The position numbers and the translations under genes were made by a program. Under the pieces are notes generated by a model. It was not told the DNA's origin and did not search any database. It saw nothing but the letters and a program-made list of their open reading frames with translations. From the NCBI GenBank assembly GCA_016182555.1, contig JACPGJ010000007.1:256053-293379 (forward strand): a stretch of 37,327 nucleotides of DNA. Direction: 5' to 3'. Below, in pieces: positions 28,540 to 34,147 of this stretch (position 1 is its first letter; each line of letters begins with the position of its first letter). This DNA is from Candidatus Kerfeldbacteria bacterium (GTDB lineage Bacteria; Patescibacteriota; Patescibacteriia; UBA9570; XYC2-FULL-38-9).

Positions 28540-28791
28540 ATGGCTCAGTTTATCACCGTACGTATTCACTCCGTCCAACCCGATGTGCTTATACTCTCAT
28601 TGCCCGATGGCCAACAACTCACTTGGCCACTCAATCAATCCGACAAATTAGAACGCACATCCTTCACTGTCGGCGATGAATATATTTTAACTCTGACATC
28701 TTCCATTGATGTCATCAATGAACTGCTTGAACAGAAACAACCGAAGCATGGCGACACTACCGAACAAAAAACCGCGCAAAAAAAAGAATAA
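28540..28791 (+). CDS. Small beta-rich conserved hypothetical protein
   Basis: The 83-residue product reads as alternating strands (TVRIHSVQPDVLILSLPDGQ, then LTWPLNQSD, then VGDEYILTLTS) with a charged, low-complexity tail. It suggests an SH3-like or OB-like small barrel; no family is recognised. I recall similar small proteins near vanW in CPR genomes, which is memory and not a search result. The end overlaps the vanW start by 44 bases, so the two may be co-translated. Confidence 0.65.
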   Translation: MAQFITVRIHSVQPDVLILSLPDGQQLTWPLNQSDKLERTSFTVGDEYILTLTSSIDVINELLEQKQPKHGDTTEQKTAQKKE

Positions 28792-30880
28792 TACGGCTGT
28801 TGAGACCCCACAGGATCTTCCGGTGGTAAAGAAAAAATACCGTTTTGTATTGAGCGCAAGACACCAACACCTATTGCACGTCACACTACTGACCGTGAGT
28901 ATGAGCATATTTGTGATGGTCGGGCTAACAAGCGCTGGATATGGGTATTTTTTAGAACGTCATCATAACCGTTTTTATCCGGGCGTTCATATTGGTGGGC
29001 TCGACTTGTCTGGCATGACCTACAAGGAAGCGCTTGATATCGCTCAAGCACGAATTGATGAACTCAATAAAGACGGCTTAATTATTCAATATCCTGTTGC
29101 ACATACGGCATCAGCATCCAATGAAAACAGCGGCTATCCCACCCTCCACTTAACTCCCGTAACGATTCCGCTGAATGCTGCAGATAATGAACGAATAGTC
29201 TACAGCCTGGATATTGATCAAACATTGCGCAACGCATTCGCCATTGGCCGAAGTGGAAACCGTTGGGAAAATGCTCAACAACAATATTGGGCAGCACGCT
29301 ACCGGCGACCAATACAAATCAAACTCCAATTTGATGATGCGTATGTGAAAGAATTACTGAATACCACTTTTGCAACATTCACCACTCCGGCAACGAACGC
29401 GGATATTCATATTCAAGAAAATGGCGAAGTGCAACTGGTACCAGAATCGCTTGGAAAAATATTTGATATAGACGCAATCACTGATGAGATACGTGCTCAC
29501 TTATTCACCTTCAATCTCGAACCAATCTCTATAGGCTTACACACCGACTACCCGGCAGTCACGGCGGAAGATATTCAATCTGACCGCCGCTTAATTGATT
29601 CGTATCTCAACCAAACACCCATCCGGCTATCGTGGAATGGCGATGGGCAAGATCACCAATGGGAATTCAATCGAACAACCGTGGCATCTTGGCTATCCTA
29701 TGAATCTGGCACATTGTCTATCCATCCGAAAGCGTTAGAACAATCATTGCAAGAGATATCAGCGGTCATTACGATTGATGCGCCAGAACCACGTTGGACT
29801 GTGGTCAAAGATGAGAACGGAAAATTAGTAGATATTCAACCCATGGCTGAAATACAAACAGGCCGAACAATACACTATAAACAAACTGCCAATGCAATCA
29901 TGGCTGCATTGAAAGCCGCGGCGGCAGGACGAACATCAACTGCGGAAGCAATTCCGATTACCGTGAAAGAAAAAGAACCGGCATTTACGGCTGAAAATAT
30001 TCACGATTTAGGCATGAGTGATTTGCTGGGCACCGGCCAATCAAATACCACGACACATACCTCGGTGAACCGTCGAAAAAATATTCAACGTGGAGTAGAT
30101 GCGTTGAATGGTATGCTCATTGCTCCGGGTGAAGAATTTTCTCTGCTCCGTGTGCTGCGTCCATTCACCTATGAAAATGGATATGTATCTGAGCTGGTGA
30201 TTAAAGGGGACCGAACGACACCAGAAATTGGTGGTGGATTGTGCCAAGTGGGTTCGACATTATTTCGCGCTGCCATGAATTCGGGCTTAGATATTACGGC
30301 ACGCACAAATCACTCATTTGCCGTTTCCTATTACAATGATCCACGCAATGGCCAGCCCGGAACCGATGCCACCATCTATGACCCAGCTCCCGATTTCAAA
30401 TTTATCAACGATTCCGGAAATTATATTTTGCTGCAAACGCGCATGGAAGGAAATGACCTCTACTTTGATGTGTGGGGAAAAAATGATGGCCGTGTTGGTT
30501 CGTATACTGCACCCACAACCTATAATTGGATTTCACCACCACCAATGAAAGAAATTCCTTCTACTGAATTAGCTCCTGGCCAGCGTAAATGTACCGAAAA
30601 TGCGTTTGCCGGCGTGACCGCGGAATTTACCTACAATATTGTTTACGGTGATGGGAGCACGCATGCCGAGGTGTTCAAATCTGTTTACAAACCGTGGCAA
30701 GCGGTCTGTTTAGTCGGTGTGGATCCGAATGCGCAACAAACACCGGTCGATGATGATACTACTGATGACAACCCAACGAACACAAACAATAACACGAATG
30801 CCAACACAAATAGTAATAGCAATGCAAACACCAACAAAAATACGAATAATTCAAATTCCAACACCAATAAAAAAAAATAG
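28748..30880 (+). CDS. VanW family protein with peptidoglycan-binding-like domains
   Basis: The frame begins earlier, but the ATG at 28748 (MATLPNKKPRKKK) gives a normal basic cytoplasmic start and 710 residues. A membrane segment (about residues 35-60, TLLTVSMSIFVMVGLTSAGY) anchors it. PG_binding_4-like repeats (about 70-430) and the VanW domain follow; the latter includes NIQRGVDALNGMLIAPGEEF, EIGGGLCQVGSTLFRAA and DITARTNHSFAVSYYNDPRNG. The last 50 residues are Asn/Thr low complexity. VanW proteins are linked to the cell wall, although their reaction is not established. This is the usual size class for CPR VanW. It converges on the anti-sigma-like gene with 5 bases between stops. Confidence 0.9.
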   Translation: MATLPNKKPRKKKNNTAVETPQDLPVVKKKYRFVLSARHQHLLHVTLLTVSMSIFVMVGLTSAGYGYFLERHHNRFYPGVHIGGLDLSGMTYKEALDIAQARIDELNKDGLIIQYPVAHTASASNENSGYPTLHLTPVTIPLNAADNERIVYSLDIDQTLRNAFAIGRSGNRWENAQQQYWAARYRRPIQIKLQFDDAYVKELLNTTFATFTTPATNADIHIQENGEVQLVPESLGKIFDIDAITDEIRAHLFTFNLEPISIGLHTDYPAVTAEDIQSDRRLIDSYLNQTPIRLSWNGDGQDHQWEFNRTTVASWLSYESGTLSIHPKALEQSLQEISAVITIDAPEPRWTVVKDENGKLVDIQPMAEIQTGRTIHYKQTANAIMAALKAAAAGRTSTAEAIPITVKEKEPAFTAENIHDLGMSDLLGTGQSNTTTHTSVNRRKNIQRGVDALNGMLIAPGEEFSLLRVLRPFTYENGYVSELVIKGDRTTPEIGGGLCQVGSTLFRAAMNSGLDITARTNHSFAVSYYNDPRNGQPGTDATIYDPAPDFKFINDSGNYILLQTRMEGNDLYFDVWGKNDGRVGSYTAPTTYNWISPPPMKEIPSTELAPGQRKCTENAFAGVTAEFTYNIVYGDGSTHAEVFKSVYKPWQAVCLVGVDPNAQQTPVDDDTTDDNPTNTNNNTNANTNSNSNANTNKNTNNSNSNTNKKK

Positions 30881-30885
30881 ACTGA

Positions 30886-32238
30886 TTAGTAATACAATAT
30901 ATTGAATAGGCTATACGTGGCATAGAGATTTCCATCGCGTGTTGCATCTATATACAGTTCAAATGTATTTTCAGTACCGTGTTCTTTTCCTTGAATTCTA
31001 TACAGTGGAATCAAACGTATATCATCTACACCTTTTTCTACTTCATGAACCAATACTTCATATTGCAAATTTATTGCCTCAATATCAATTTTTTTATTTG
31101 ATGTATCAATACCCATATCTGAAAGAACTCTGTGGTCCGGAGGAACAAACACCCAATCAAATGCATTCTCTTCTTCACCGGTCATGTGTGAAAAATCTTG
31201 CACCATGCGATCATACACTTCTTCTTGAGAAATAATGTCATACTGCTGAACAGATGGTTCAGATACAAACAATTGACCATACAAAGAAACAAGCTTGCCA
31301 TTCTTTAGGGCCGCGTGCCACGCATACGGATAAAACGGAATCGTTGTTTTTTCTTCCACCGGTAGGTAGATTGTATAGTATTGATCAAATATGGTGGTTT
31401 GAGCATACGAGTCTGTTTCAAGCACTACTGGTTCAATAATGAAAGCTGCTTCCGGGATTCCCGTGATCTGATGAATATCATTCGTTGCTTCTTTTAGTGG
31501 ATCGGCTTGTGCTGCCGTTTCTGTTTGTTCTAAATCAACCAAACCGCGACTATTGATAAAAAGGCAGCGTGGTGTTGTTAAAGGAACGTTTTGTTGCCAA
31601 TGACGAGCTCCTCGACAACCCGCTGTTTGTTGCTTTGGGACTGTCGTCAAATAACTATCCCAACCAAGAGTGGTCACCGCAGTCAGTTGGTCAGAAATAG
31701 TAAAGGCTTCAGCGATATCACGCATCTGTTTTTCACTCAATGGTTCTACCGTATATTCGGTAGCAACAAATTGATCGGTGGAAAGGGTTTTGGAGTAGGA
31801 AAATGTCCAACTAGCGTAATCGGTATCATCCGGGCCCCCACCACGACCGTCTACTAATAATTCATCAATAATCATTCTGGCTTCGGTACGACCAGCGTTG
31901 GCAATGGGTGTTGGCACTTCATCAATCTGTGTATTGGTGTTGTTTGTATTTTCCGTATTCGTATTTGTTTGTTGCGCAATATGTTCTTGGGCTGGAGTTT
32001 CGTAACGCACGCTGACAATAAAAATCACTACAGCTAATGCAACAGCGGGAATACCTATCAATAACCAAAATCGTTTCCACCAAGGTTTCGGTTCTGCTGC
32101 AAGGTGTTCAATGGTTGGTGCTGAGTGTTGTTCCTGAATACGCAACCACAAATCCTGTTTTTTCTGGGATGATAAAACACGCGGAATCCGACGGCTCTGC
32201 TGCAATAATTCTTCTATGTTTTTATGTGGCTTGTTCAT
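30886..32238 (-). CDS. Membrane protein, probable anti-sigma factor partner of the ECF sigma
   Basis: The ATG at 32238 (MNKPHKNIEELLQQS) is preferred over the earlier start; it gives 450 residues and overlaps the sigma gene end by 17 bases. A short cytoplasmic N-terminus (residues 1-65) contains VLSSQKKQDLWLRIQEQ. A membrane segment (about 70-92), an Asn/Thr linker (about 100-120) and a large extracytoplasmic region of beta-type follow. Position after sigma, single membrane pass and a large external part are the layout of anti-sigma or sensor proteins. I see no zinc-type HxxxCxxC anti-sigma motif, so binding to sigma is inferred from synteny. Confidence 0.6.
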   Translation of the reverse strand: MNKPHKNIEELLQQSRRIPRVLSSQKKQDLWLRIQEQHSAPTIEHLAAEPKPWWKRFWLLIGIPAVALAVVIFIVSVRYETPAQEHIAQQTNTNTENTNNTNTQIDEVPTPIANAGRTEARMIIDELLVDGRGGGPDDTDYASWTFSYSKTLSTDQFVATEYTVEPLSEKQMRDIAEAFTISDQLTAVTTLGWDSYLTTVPKQQTAGCRGARHWQQNVPLTTPRCLFINSRGLVDLEQTETAAQADPLKEATNDIHQITGIPEAAFIIEPVVLETDSYAQTTIFDQYYTIYLPVEEKTTIPFYPYAWHAALKNGKLVSLYGQLFVSEPSVQQYDIISQEEVYDRMVQDFSHMTGEEENAFDWVFVPPDHRVLSDMGIDTSNKKIDIEAINLQYEVLVHEVEKGVDDIRLIPLYRIQGKEHGTENTFELYIDATRDGNLYATYSLFNILYY

Positions 32239-32755
32239 AGGTGTGTTGCAGTTTATCGATAGTGCGGGAAACAAGCGTACGAATGGCTCCCGATTTTTTA
32301 TCTACTATCTGAGCAATTTCATCGTAAGACAAATCTTCCAAATACCGCAGTTCAAATATTTCTTGCACCTCTGGGGGAAACTCGCGCAACCGTTGCCACA
32401 ACAGATGAATATCCGTTTGTGTTTCCATAGAGAGCGAACGTTCATCTTTGACCACAACGGTTTCAATGTCTTCTACGACTCGCTGTTTATAATAATCTTG
32501 GCACACAGACCGCGCAACGGAATATAAATACGCCGAATACGGATACCCTTGCCACATAAATGTAGGCAGCGTTTTTAATGCGCGAGTAAATACTTCCGCC
32601 GTGGCATCCTCAGCGGCTTCTTGGTGTTGACCTGTGCGATAATAGACAAATTGAAAAATACGATCAACATATTTATCATATAACGCGGCAAATGCATCCG
32701 GTTGCTGTTGAGCTCGTGCAATCAGCTCCTGATCTTCGTGCGGTTGCGCCTCCAT
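32222..32755 (-). CDS. ECF-type RNA polymerase sigma-70 factor
   Basis: The 177-residue product has region 2 (FAALYDKYVDRIFQFVYYRT, then EDATAEVFTRALKTLPTF and YSAYLYSVARSVCQDYYKQR) and region 4 (FPPEVQEIFELRYLEDLSYD, EIAQIVDKKSGAIRTLVSRT). No region 3, so it is an ECF sigma. The start ATG has no Shine-Dalgarno sequence. It forms a pair with the membrane gene downstream, whose start overlaps its stop. The structured RNA at about 32804-32965 lies just upstream on the same strand and ends in a U-tract before this gene. Confidence 0.93.
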   Translation of the reverse strand: MEAQPHEDQELIARAQQQPDAFAALYDKYVDRIFQFVYYRTGQHQEAAEDATAEVFTRALKTLPTFMWQGYPYSAYLYSVARSVCQDYYKQRVVEDIETVVVKDERSLSMETQTDIHLLWQRLREFPPEVQEIFELRYLEDLSYDEIAQIVDKKSGAIRTLVSRTIDKLQHTYEQAT

Positions 32756-32803: not shown

Positions 32804-32965
32804 AACAAAAAATGCCCCACACTATACAGCAGGCAAGAGAATGTATTCTCGGAAGATTCGAGCCGGAGCCTGAATTTTCCGCGAAAAATACCTTCCCATG
32901 CTTGTCGTGCCTGCTGAACAGTAGGGAGCACCACAGCGTCATTTCGTTATGGAGTACGACAATGA
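32804..32965 (-). ncRNA. Structured non-coding RNA, about 160 bases, class unassigned
   Basis: The 366 bases between the sigma gene and ruvB hold no convincing gene but contain this RNA. On the minus strand 24 positions (32931-32908) pair with 32835-32812: 22 pair, four of them G-U, with two mismatches. Read on the plus strand the four G-U pairs would be A-C mismatches, so the minus strand is favoured. The helix closes a 72-base apical region with an internal GGAAG/CTTCC stem and a GAGAA-TACA-TTCTC hairpin, and is followed by a run of six U. A near-perfect promoter starts it about 34 bases before the helix. Size and closing helix recall 6S RNA, but I do not see a certain 6S central bubble, and the SRP domain IV consensus is absent. 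Confidence 0.65.
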
Positions 32966-32971
32966 CAAACA

Positions 32972-33000
32972 ATAATAGCGCCTTTTCACGTGTTTGTCAA
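32972..33000 (-). promoter_or_regulatory. Near-consensus promoter of the structured RNA
   Basis: On the minus strand TTGACA (33000-32995), 17 bases and TATTAT (32977-32972). Transcription should start near 32965. Confidence 0.8.
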
Positions 33001-33121: not shown

Positions 33122-34147
33122 ATGAGTATAGAAGTCGTTACAACCCCGGAACAGAAGGAGGATGACAAAACCCTAGACGCCACCCTGAGACCAGCATGGC
33201 TCAGCGAATATATTGGCCAAGAACAGGTCAAAAACAATTTGCATATTTTTATTGCGGCTGCAAAAACCCGCAATGAGCCGATTGAGCATGTATTGCTGCA
33301 TGGAAACCCAGGTCTTGGGAAAACCACGTTAGCCTACATTATTGCCAAAGAAATGGGTACGAATATTCGCGTTACCTCTGGCCCGGCCATTGAACGCACG
33401 GGTGACCTAGCCGCAATTCTCACGAACTTACAGGAAGGTGATATTTTATTTATTGATGAAATTCACCGATTACACAAAACCATTGAAGAAATATTATACC
33501 CAGCAATGGAAGATTATGTACTTGATGTCATTGTTGGCAAAGGCCCGGCCGCACGCACACTTCGCCTCGAACTCCCCAAATTTACGATCATTGGTGCCAC
33601 CACACGCATGAGCCTCATTTCCGCTCCGCTGCGTGATCGTTTCGGCGGTCAATATAAATTGGAACTCTATGGTGAAGATGAGATTGAACAAATTATTCAT
33701 CGTTCCGCACGAATCCTCAGCATTGATATTGACAAAGACTCAGCACAAGAAATCGCTCGTCGTGCACGCCGAACTCCACGCATTGCCAACCGTTTACTCA
33801 AACGCGTGCGTGATTATGCACAAGTGAAACATGCCGGTCATATTTCCCATGCTGCTAGCGTTGCAGCGCTGGCGTTATTGGATGTTGACCACCTTGGGTT
33901 GAACATGGTAGATCGGAAATTACTGCAAACCATTATTGAAAAATTTAATGGCGGACCGGTAGGAGCGCAAACGATTGCCGCAGCAACTGCCGAAGAGCAA
34001 GAAACCATTGAAGAAGTCTATGAACCGTTTCTGATGCAACTCGGATTTCTCGCTCGTACTCCCCGCGGTCGCGTGGTCACCGAACATGCCTATCGCCACC
34101 TCGGTATGCATGTTCCGCAAAACGTGCAAGAAAAATTAGCCATCTAA
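33122..34147 (+). CDS. ruvB: Holliday junction branch migration ATPase RuvB
   Basis: AAA+ motor that drives branch migration with RuvA. The 341-residue product has Walker [10 protein letters not shown] at residues 61-69, Walker [11 protein letters not shown], the sensor-type GATTR and the RuvB-specific C-terminal winged helix ([20 protein letters not shown], then [12 protein letters not shown]). Length is normal. The ATG at 33122 is preceded by an A/T-rich region and no Shine-Dalgarno sequence, fitting a near-leaderless mRNA. ruvA and ruvC are not in the window. Two small membrane genes and queA follow in the same direction with short gaps. Confidence 0.97.

Follow-up and report, generated by a model that had tools for sequence, protein, structure and literature searches.

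A rod-shaped RNA family with its own promoter, near-universal in the ABY1 class of Patescibacteria, and its possible 6S-like function

Structured RNAs that are near-universal in a bacterial class are few, and comprise rRNA, tRNA, RNase P, tmRNA, SRP RNA and 6S RNA. 6S RNA binds sigma-70 RNA polymerase and templates pRNA synthesis. In 6S RNA, a -10-like element on the 3' strand of the central bubble is key to binding, and the 6S-1 RNA of B. subtilis has a 'central bubble collapse helix' (PMC8876501). Ms1, which is widespread in Actinobacteria, a lineage without a recognised 6S RNA, sits in a conserved gene context, is reported to be structurally related to 6S and to bind the core of RNA polymerase (PMC9130861). 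The SRP subunits, in turn, are reported to be absent in many CPR (PMC8080830).

Here, we compare with these systems an RNA encoded in a 37,327-nucleotide stretch of a Candidatus Kerfeldbacteria genome, referred to below as the window. This rod RNA represents a new family with its own promoter that is near-universal and usually single-copy in ABY1, a class of ultra-small bacteria, and it possibly has a 6S-like function.

The RNA gene and its covarying fold

The initial annotation had read the locus as a dedicated RNA gene of about 160 bases, marked by a TTGACA-N17-TATTAT promoter, a closing helix with G-U pairs that work only on the minus strand, a 72-base apical region and a six-U tail, and our analysis bears this out. 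The promoter is present at 33000-32972 and the UUUUUU run at 32812-32807, both on the minus strand; the closing helix has 23 pairs over 25 positions (22/24 without the last G-U pair), encloses 72 nt and contains G-U pairs that work on the minus strand only; and homologues, covariation and upstream promoters strongly support the gene as such (Table 1). The predicted transcript is ~160 nt long and runs on the minus strand from ~32965, a start inferred from the position of the -10 box, to ~32807. We consider the existence and the structure of this RNA gene practically certain.

Table 1. Features of the rod RNA gene and its conserved neighbours in the window
Feature	Position	Strand	Remark
-35 element TTGACA	32995..33000	minus	Found in the window; TTGACA also upstream of most homologues
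-10 element TATTAT, spacer 17 nt	32972..32977	minus	Seen in the window and in homologues
Predicted transcript, hairpin in 5' leader	32939..32965	minus	From the fold; not conserved
Closing helix, 5' arm (ends ...CAGCAGGCA)	32908..32932	minus	23/24 helix 1 pairs change on both sides
Unpaired 10-nt internal loop CGACAAGCAU	32898..32907	minus	Nearly invariant; from 91-homologue alignment and pairing probabilities
Apical hairpin GGC-UCCG-GCU	32861..32870	minus	Conserved G.U (90/91) and G-C (87/91) pairs
UUCUC 3' strand and one unpaired U, facing the loop	32836..32841	minus	Family members keep tandem G.U wobbles
Closing helix, 3' arm	32811..32835	minus	From the fold and homologue covariation
UUUUUU run, probable intrinsic terminator tail	32807..32812	minus	
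VanW/PG_binding_4 protein gene	28706..30880	plus	Conserved convergent neighbour in the class; here 1.9 kb off
ruvB, divergent neighbour	33122..34147	plus	Also near the RNA in 14/88 loci and in two other-class relatives

The minus strand of 32804-32965 folds at -62.3 kcal/mol, against a mean of -42.4 for shuffled sequences (z = -5.4), and none of 200 shuffles folds as well. The conserved family model covers the rod at ~32932-32811, which is ~129 nt long and nearly constant in model length among homologues, and leaves the hairpin at 32965-32939 outside. The distance from promoter to rod differs between homologues, which argues that the leader is not conserved.

Upstream of the rod, a scan of 150 nt at a threshold of 10/12 finds promoter sites of at least 10/12 in 72.5% of homologues and in 5.7% of shuffled upstream regions; the promoters of the homologues are strong and of the sigma-70 type. 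Downstream, a U-run (6/8) stands at the end of the closing stem in 42/91 homologues, compared with 24/91 at the other end on the opposite strand, and a separate simple terminator lies at most 90 nt away in 28/91 homologues, as against 1 in shuffled sequences.

Covariation, for which the initial annotation had suggested a test, is strong over the 91 homologues gathered. Two-sided compensatory change occurs at 40/44 pairs of alignment A3, the covariation score is 0.734 vs 0.203, and no covariation measure was reached by shuffles (0/500). Paired cells make up 91.4% of A3, compared with 62.9% on shuffling and 41-51% on sliding, a percentage that is biased towards the structure inasmuch as A3 was fitted to the covariance model; in the first MAFFT alignment, which was not fitted to the model, two-sided change is already found at 34/44 pairs. 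Read on the RNA strand, the homologues hold 528 G-U cells vs 99 A-C cells, an excess that assigns the RNA to the minus strand of the window. Short ORFs overlap the region, and what is conserved there is base pairing, not codons.

While the helices change freely, the bases of the internal loop are almost fixed: most bases of CGACAAGCAU are identical in 91/91 homologues and the remaining ones in 85-90/91, with an unpaired probability of 0.74-0.96, and the G.U wobbles adjoining the loop are kept in 86/91 and 65/91. The first eleven homologues differ in their helices but have CACGACAAGCATGGG in common, little changed, as well as TTCTTG on the 3' strand. At the apex, likewise, the tetraloop is variable while the G.U and G-C pairs are kept. 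An alternative CAAG/CUUG register, though feasible, has a predicted ensemble probability of only 0.015, and the main register is favoured by four sequences in which a flip is compensated. A loop so nearly fixed suggests base-specific recognition, and its ten bases are probably a binding site, judging from their conservation in sequence.

Such recognition could also be by base pairing, with the loop pairing to a conserved RNA, an example being CAUGGUUGUCGU, a universal segment of 16S rRNA close to helix 34. The stretch ACGACAAGCAUG (32897-32908, minus strand), which comprises the loop and one base on each side, is complementary at 11/12 positions to the genome's own 16S rRNA, a match reached by 11 of 1500 shuffled 12-mers on either strand (~0.7%), and a universal target would account for the invariant loop. 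We nevertheless think this unlikely, as all 91 homologues keep the sole mismatch, a G facing a G, which selection would be expected to have eliminated, the target site sits in structured rRNA, the match was noticed after the fact, and the genes around the RNA show no enrichment of loop-complementary sites. In the genome from which the window comes, a ~720-base insertion splits the 16S rRNA gene (L273:6093-8461, minus strand).

Distribution and gene neighbourhood

Searched for DNA similarity, 57 relatives yielded eleven sequences at ten loci, one of which carries two tandem copies, and the covariance model R1 was built from these first eleven homologues. R1 matches in 250/286 genomes of the same class (nearly 90%), with E-values down to 1e-33, and the RNA is mostly single-copy per class genome. 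Taken with the strong covariation of 91 homologues, this spread rules out a chance origin. In an independent draw, 31/33 class genomes have the RNA vs 5/347 other genomes of the phylum, the latter matching a second model, R2, weakly. An exact scan for the loop pattern finds it in Uhr-, Magasanik-, Kerfeld-, Falkow- and Buchananbacteria, which we take to make up the GTDB class ABY1; the same pattern was not found in viral contigs.

Each of the ten genomes sampled from a single family (f35, Buchananbacteria) carries two or three copies. In the loci of this family that were read (L011:1416-1759, L067, L094 and others), the copies lie in tandem, ~215 bases apart. A class genome without an R1 match, L255, has a divergent candidate beside vanW. 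Three further matches were set aside: the two in Alphaproteobacteria fit the DNA pattern without fitting the covariance model and were taken as chance, and the L010 match is coding-like and lacks the loop motif.

For the relatives in other classes, the context of four of the five was examined, and a good promoter is present in each; G327, the fifth weak match, is apparently an inverted repeat with no relation to the RNA. The RNA is convergent with vanW in L239 and L240 and lies beside ruvB in L240 and L242. These relatives keep the rod, and in L239 and L240 a short bulge replaces the loop, which argues that the loop is not needed for the task of the older rod. We infer from these sequences an older rod RNA whose loop may have been added or enlarged in ABY1.

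Within the class, a vanW homologue lies at most 2 kb from the RNA in 68/88 loci, and in 51 of the 88 it is the next downstream gene, in convergent orientation and often less than 100 bases away; clpP is near the RNA in 32/88 loci. The identity of clpP comes from inspection of the sequence, those of vanW and ruvB from family assignment. With a vanW setting that recurs in two other-class relatives, the element might be thought to serve vanW in cis, as a shared bidirectional terminator or a 3' UTR structure, and we regard this as quite improbable: in 20/88 loci a span of 2 kb turned up no vanW, the RNA is still intact in the window, where vanW is 1.9 kb off, and promoters on the RNA strand, strand-specific G-U pairs and a near-invariant loop require a function on that strand.

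At 30886-32755 (minus strand) the window holds an ECF sigma gene; the next ORF, of 462 aa, overlaps it, has no Pfam match and possibly encodes the anti-sigma partner. Among the loci read, these two genes separate the RNA from vanW in this genome only, and no ECF sigma homologue is found in the other RNA loci, which makes the sigma link a local accident; a role tied to the adjacent sigma factor, as first proposed, thus finds no echo at the other loci, where the recurrent neighbour is convergent vanW. That the RNA is an mRNA leader or riboswitch of the sigma gene, which does lie downstream on the same strand in the window, is most improbable and is already contradicted by the differing synteny of other loci: sigma homologues are missing there, the downstream gene is usually convergent, and in the window the U-run terminates the RNA ahead of the sigma start.

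Comparison with 6S, Ms1 and SRP RNAs

The initial annotation had left open a divergent 6S RNA or a new CPR RNA class; the second reading is strongly supported, and membership in 6S is not. The Rfam check that it proposed matched no family: at permissive thresholds, Rfam 15 has no match for the window or 20 homologues, its hits being isolated, at chance level and common to none of the homologues. Even with E allowed to reach 10, RF00013 matches none of the 20 homologues, while 6S genes from CPR classes other than ABY1 score ~30-60 bits with this model. Canonical CPR 6S RNAs (L177-L191) mostly fall under the Rfam gathering score.

In anatomy, the rod RNA shares with 6S a rod of comparable size with a closing stem, an internal loop and an apical arm, and a sigma-70-type promoter of its own; a 6S-type rod with closing and apical stems, 150-200 nt long and with its own promoter, is indeed what is found here. 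Both are near-universal in a class and usually present in one copy, apart from the single family with two or three rod RNAs. It differs in that its loop opens on the 5' strand only and has a fixed sequence, and in that it lacks a CCCACCU-type 3' strand. The rod RNA has no central bubble that opens both strands and presents a -10-like sequence on the 3' side: its loop faces one unpaired U, and alignment columns 135-139 of the 3' strand are paired with a probability of ~0.9 or more. Both the RF00013 score and the shape of the bubble thus speak against canonical 6S membership.

Synteny gives no support for orthology to 6S either: outside ABY1, CPR 6S genes mostly adjoin a gene that is presumably site-2-protease-like, judging from its HEFSHAW-type motif, and not vanW, ruvB or clpP. 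Where true 6S and the rod RNA were sought in one genome, the 6S-bearing genomes showed no clear rod RNA next to vanW. 6S was detected in 19/222 genomes of other CPR classes (three above the cut-off) vs 0/192 ABY1 genomes, with a Fisher p of ~5e-6 that ignores phylogeny; this distribution carries little weight as an argument, given the non-independence of related genomes and the insensitivity of RF00013 in CPR, so that the absence of 6S from ABY1 may be false.

Like Ms1, the rod RNA is widespread in a class without detected 6S and has a conserved gene context; Rfam searches, however, reveal no relation between the two. With bacterial SRP RNA (RF00169, RF01854; 100-260 nt) it shares the character of a single-copy, rod-like housekeeping RNA, but the SRP apical motif is not seen in it. 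RF00169 and RF01854 match in 0/57 and 0/38 relatives, the genome of the window included, and the Ffh M domain (PF02978) was detected neither in that genome nor in the 240 Patescibacteria genomes searched, against 14/14 controls. We therefore reject an SRP identity, as searches of the lineage turned up neither SRP RNA nor the Ffh M domain, in agreement with the report on CPR (PMC8080830).

Candidate partners and meaning of the rod RNA

Near-constant rod length and two conserved patches suggest a protein ruler, and we propose, tentatively, a substitute for 6S that binds RNA polymerase in the manner of 6S or Ms1. The proposal has four parts: (i) the RNA would be an abundant housekeeping RNA that forms a rigid, protein-binding rod; (ii) recognition would take place at the near-fixed 10-nt loop of the 5' strand, which a conserved G.U-rich helix flanks; (iii) a second contact would be made by the GG/CU element at the apex, some two helical turns away from the loop; and (iv) the likeliest partner would be RNA polymerase, with the RNA replacing 6S in this lineage as Ms1 does in Actinobacteria.

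Polymerase is the first choice because of the complementary distribution with 6S and the precedent of Ms1. The reading is consistent with a rod, an internal loop and an own promoter as in 6S, with ABY1-wide spread, covariation, strong promoters and a class in which 6S goes undetected, and with the CAAG/CUUG alternative pairing, which resembles the collapse helix of B. subtilis 6S-1. Against it stand the lack of a -10-like 3' bubble strand, where one U is unpaired, the loop-poor relatives of other classes that keep the rod, the possibly false absence of 6S given the insensitivity of RF00013 in CPR, and the rarity with which the CAAG/CUUG pairing is populated.

The anatomy and the conservation also fit a housekeeping RNA-protein particle in which the RNA acts as scaffold or decoy for a partner other than RNA polymerase, and here the tested 6S features fail and no known family fits. 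Such a particle seems to us somewhat doubtful, as nothing points to one protein and the recurrent vanW neighbour may merely reflect an old gene order. Without a commitment on polymerase, the rod RNA may, at a similarly guarded level, be part of an ABY1-universal RNA-protein particle that is neither 6S nor SRP, has a partner and a task of an undescribed kind, and occurs in an older, loop-poor form in other Patescibacteria.

As an RNA family, the rod RNA is new with respect to Rfam 15 and the open-access papers searched, none of which holds a description of it. It adds an unrecognised near-universal structured RNA to Patescibacteria, whose genomes are reduced and have no detectable SRP, and it is a specific candidate to take on the function of the missing 6S. 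Its near-invariant loop makes the search for a partner directly testable, and if binding to polymerase were shown, the rod RNA would join the kind of RNA represented by 6S and Ms1.
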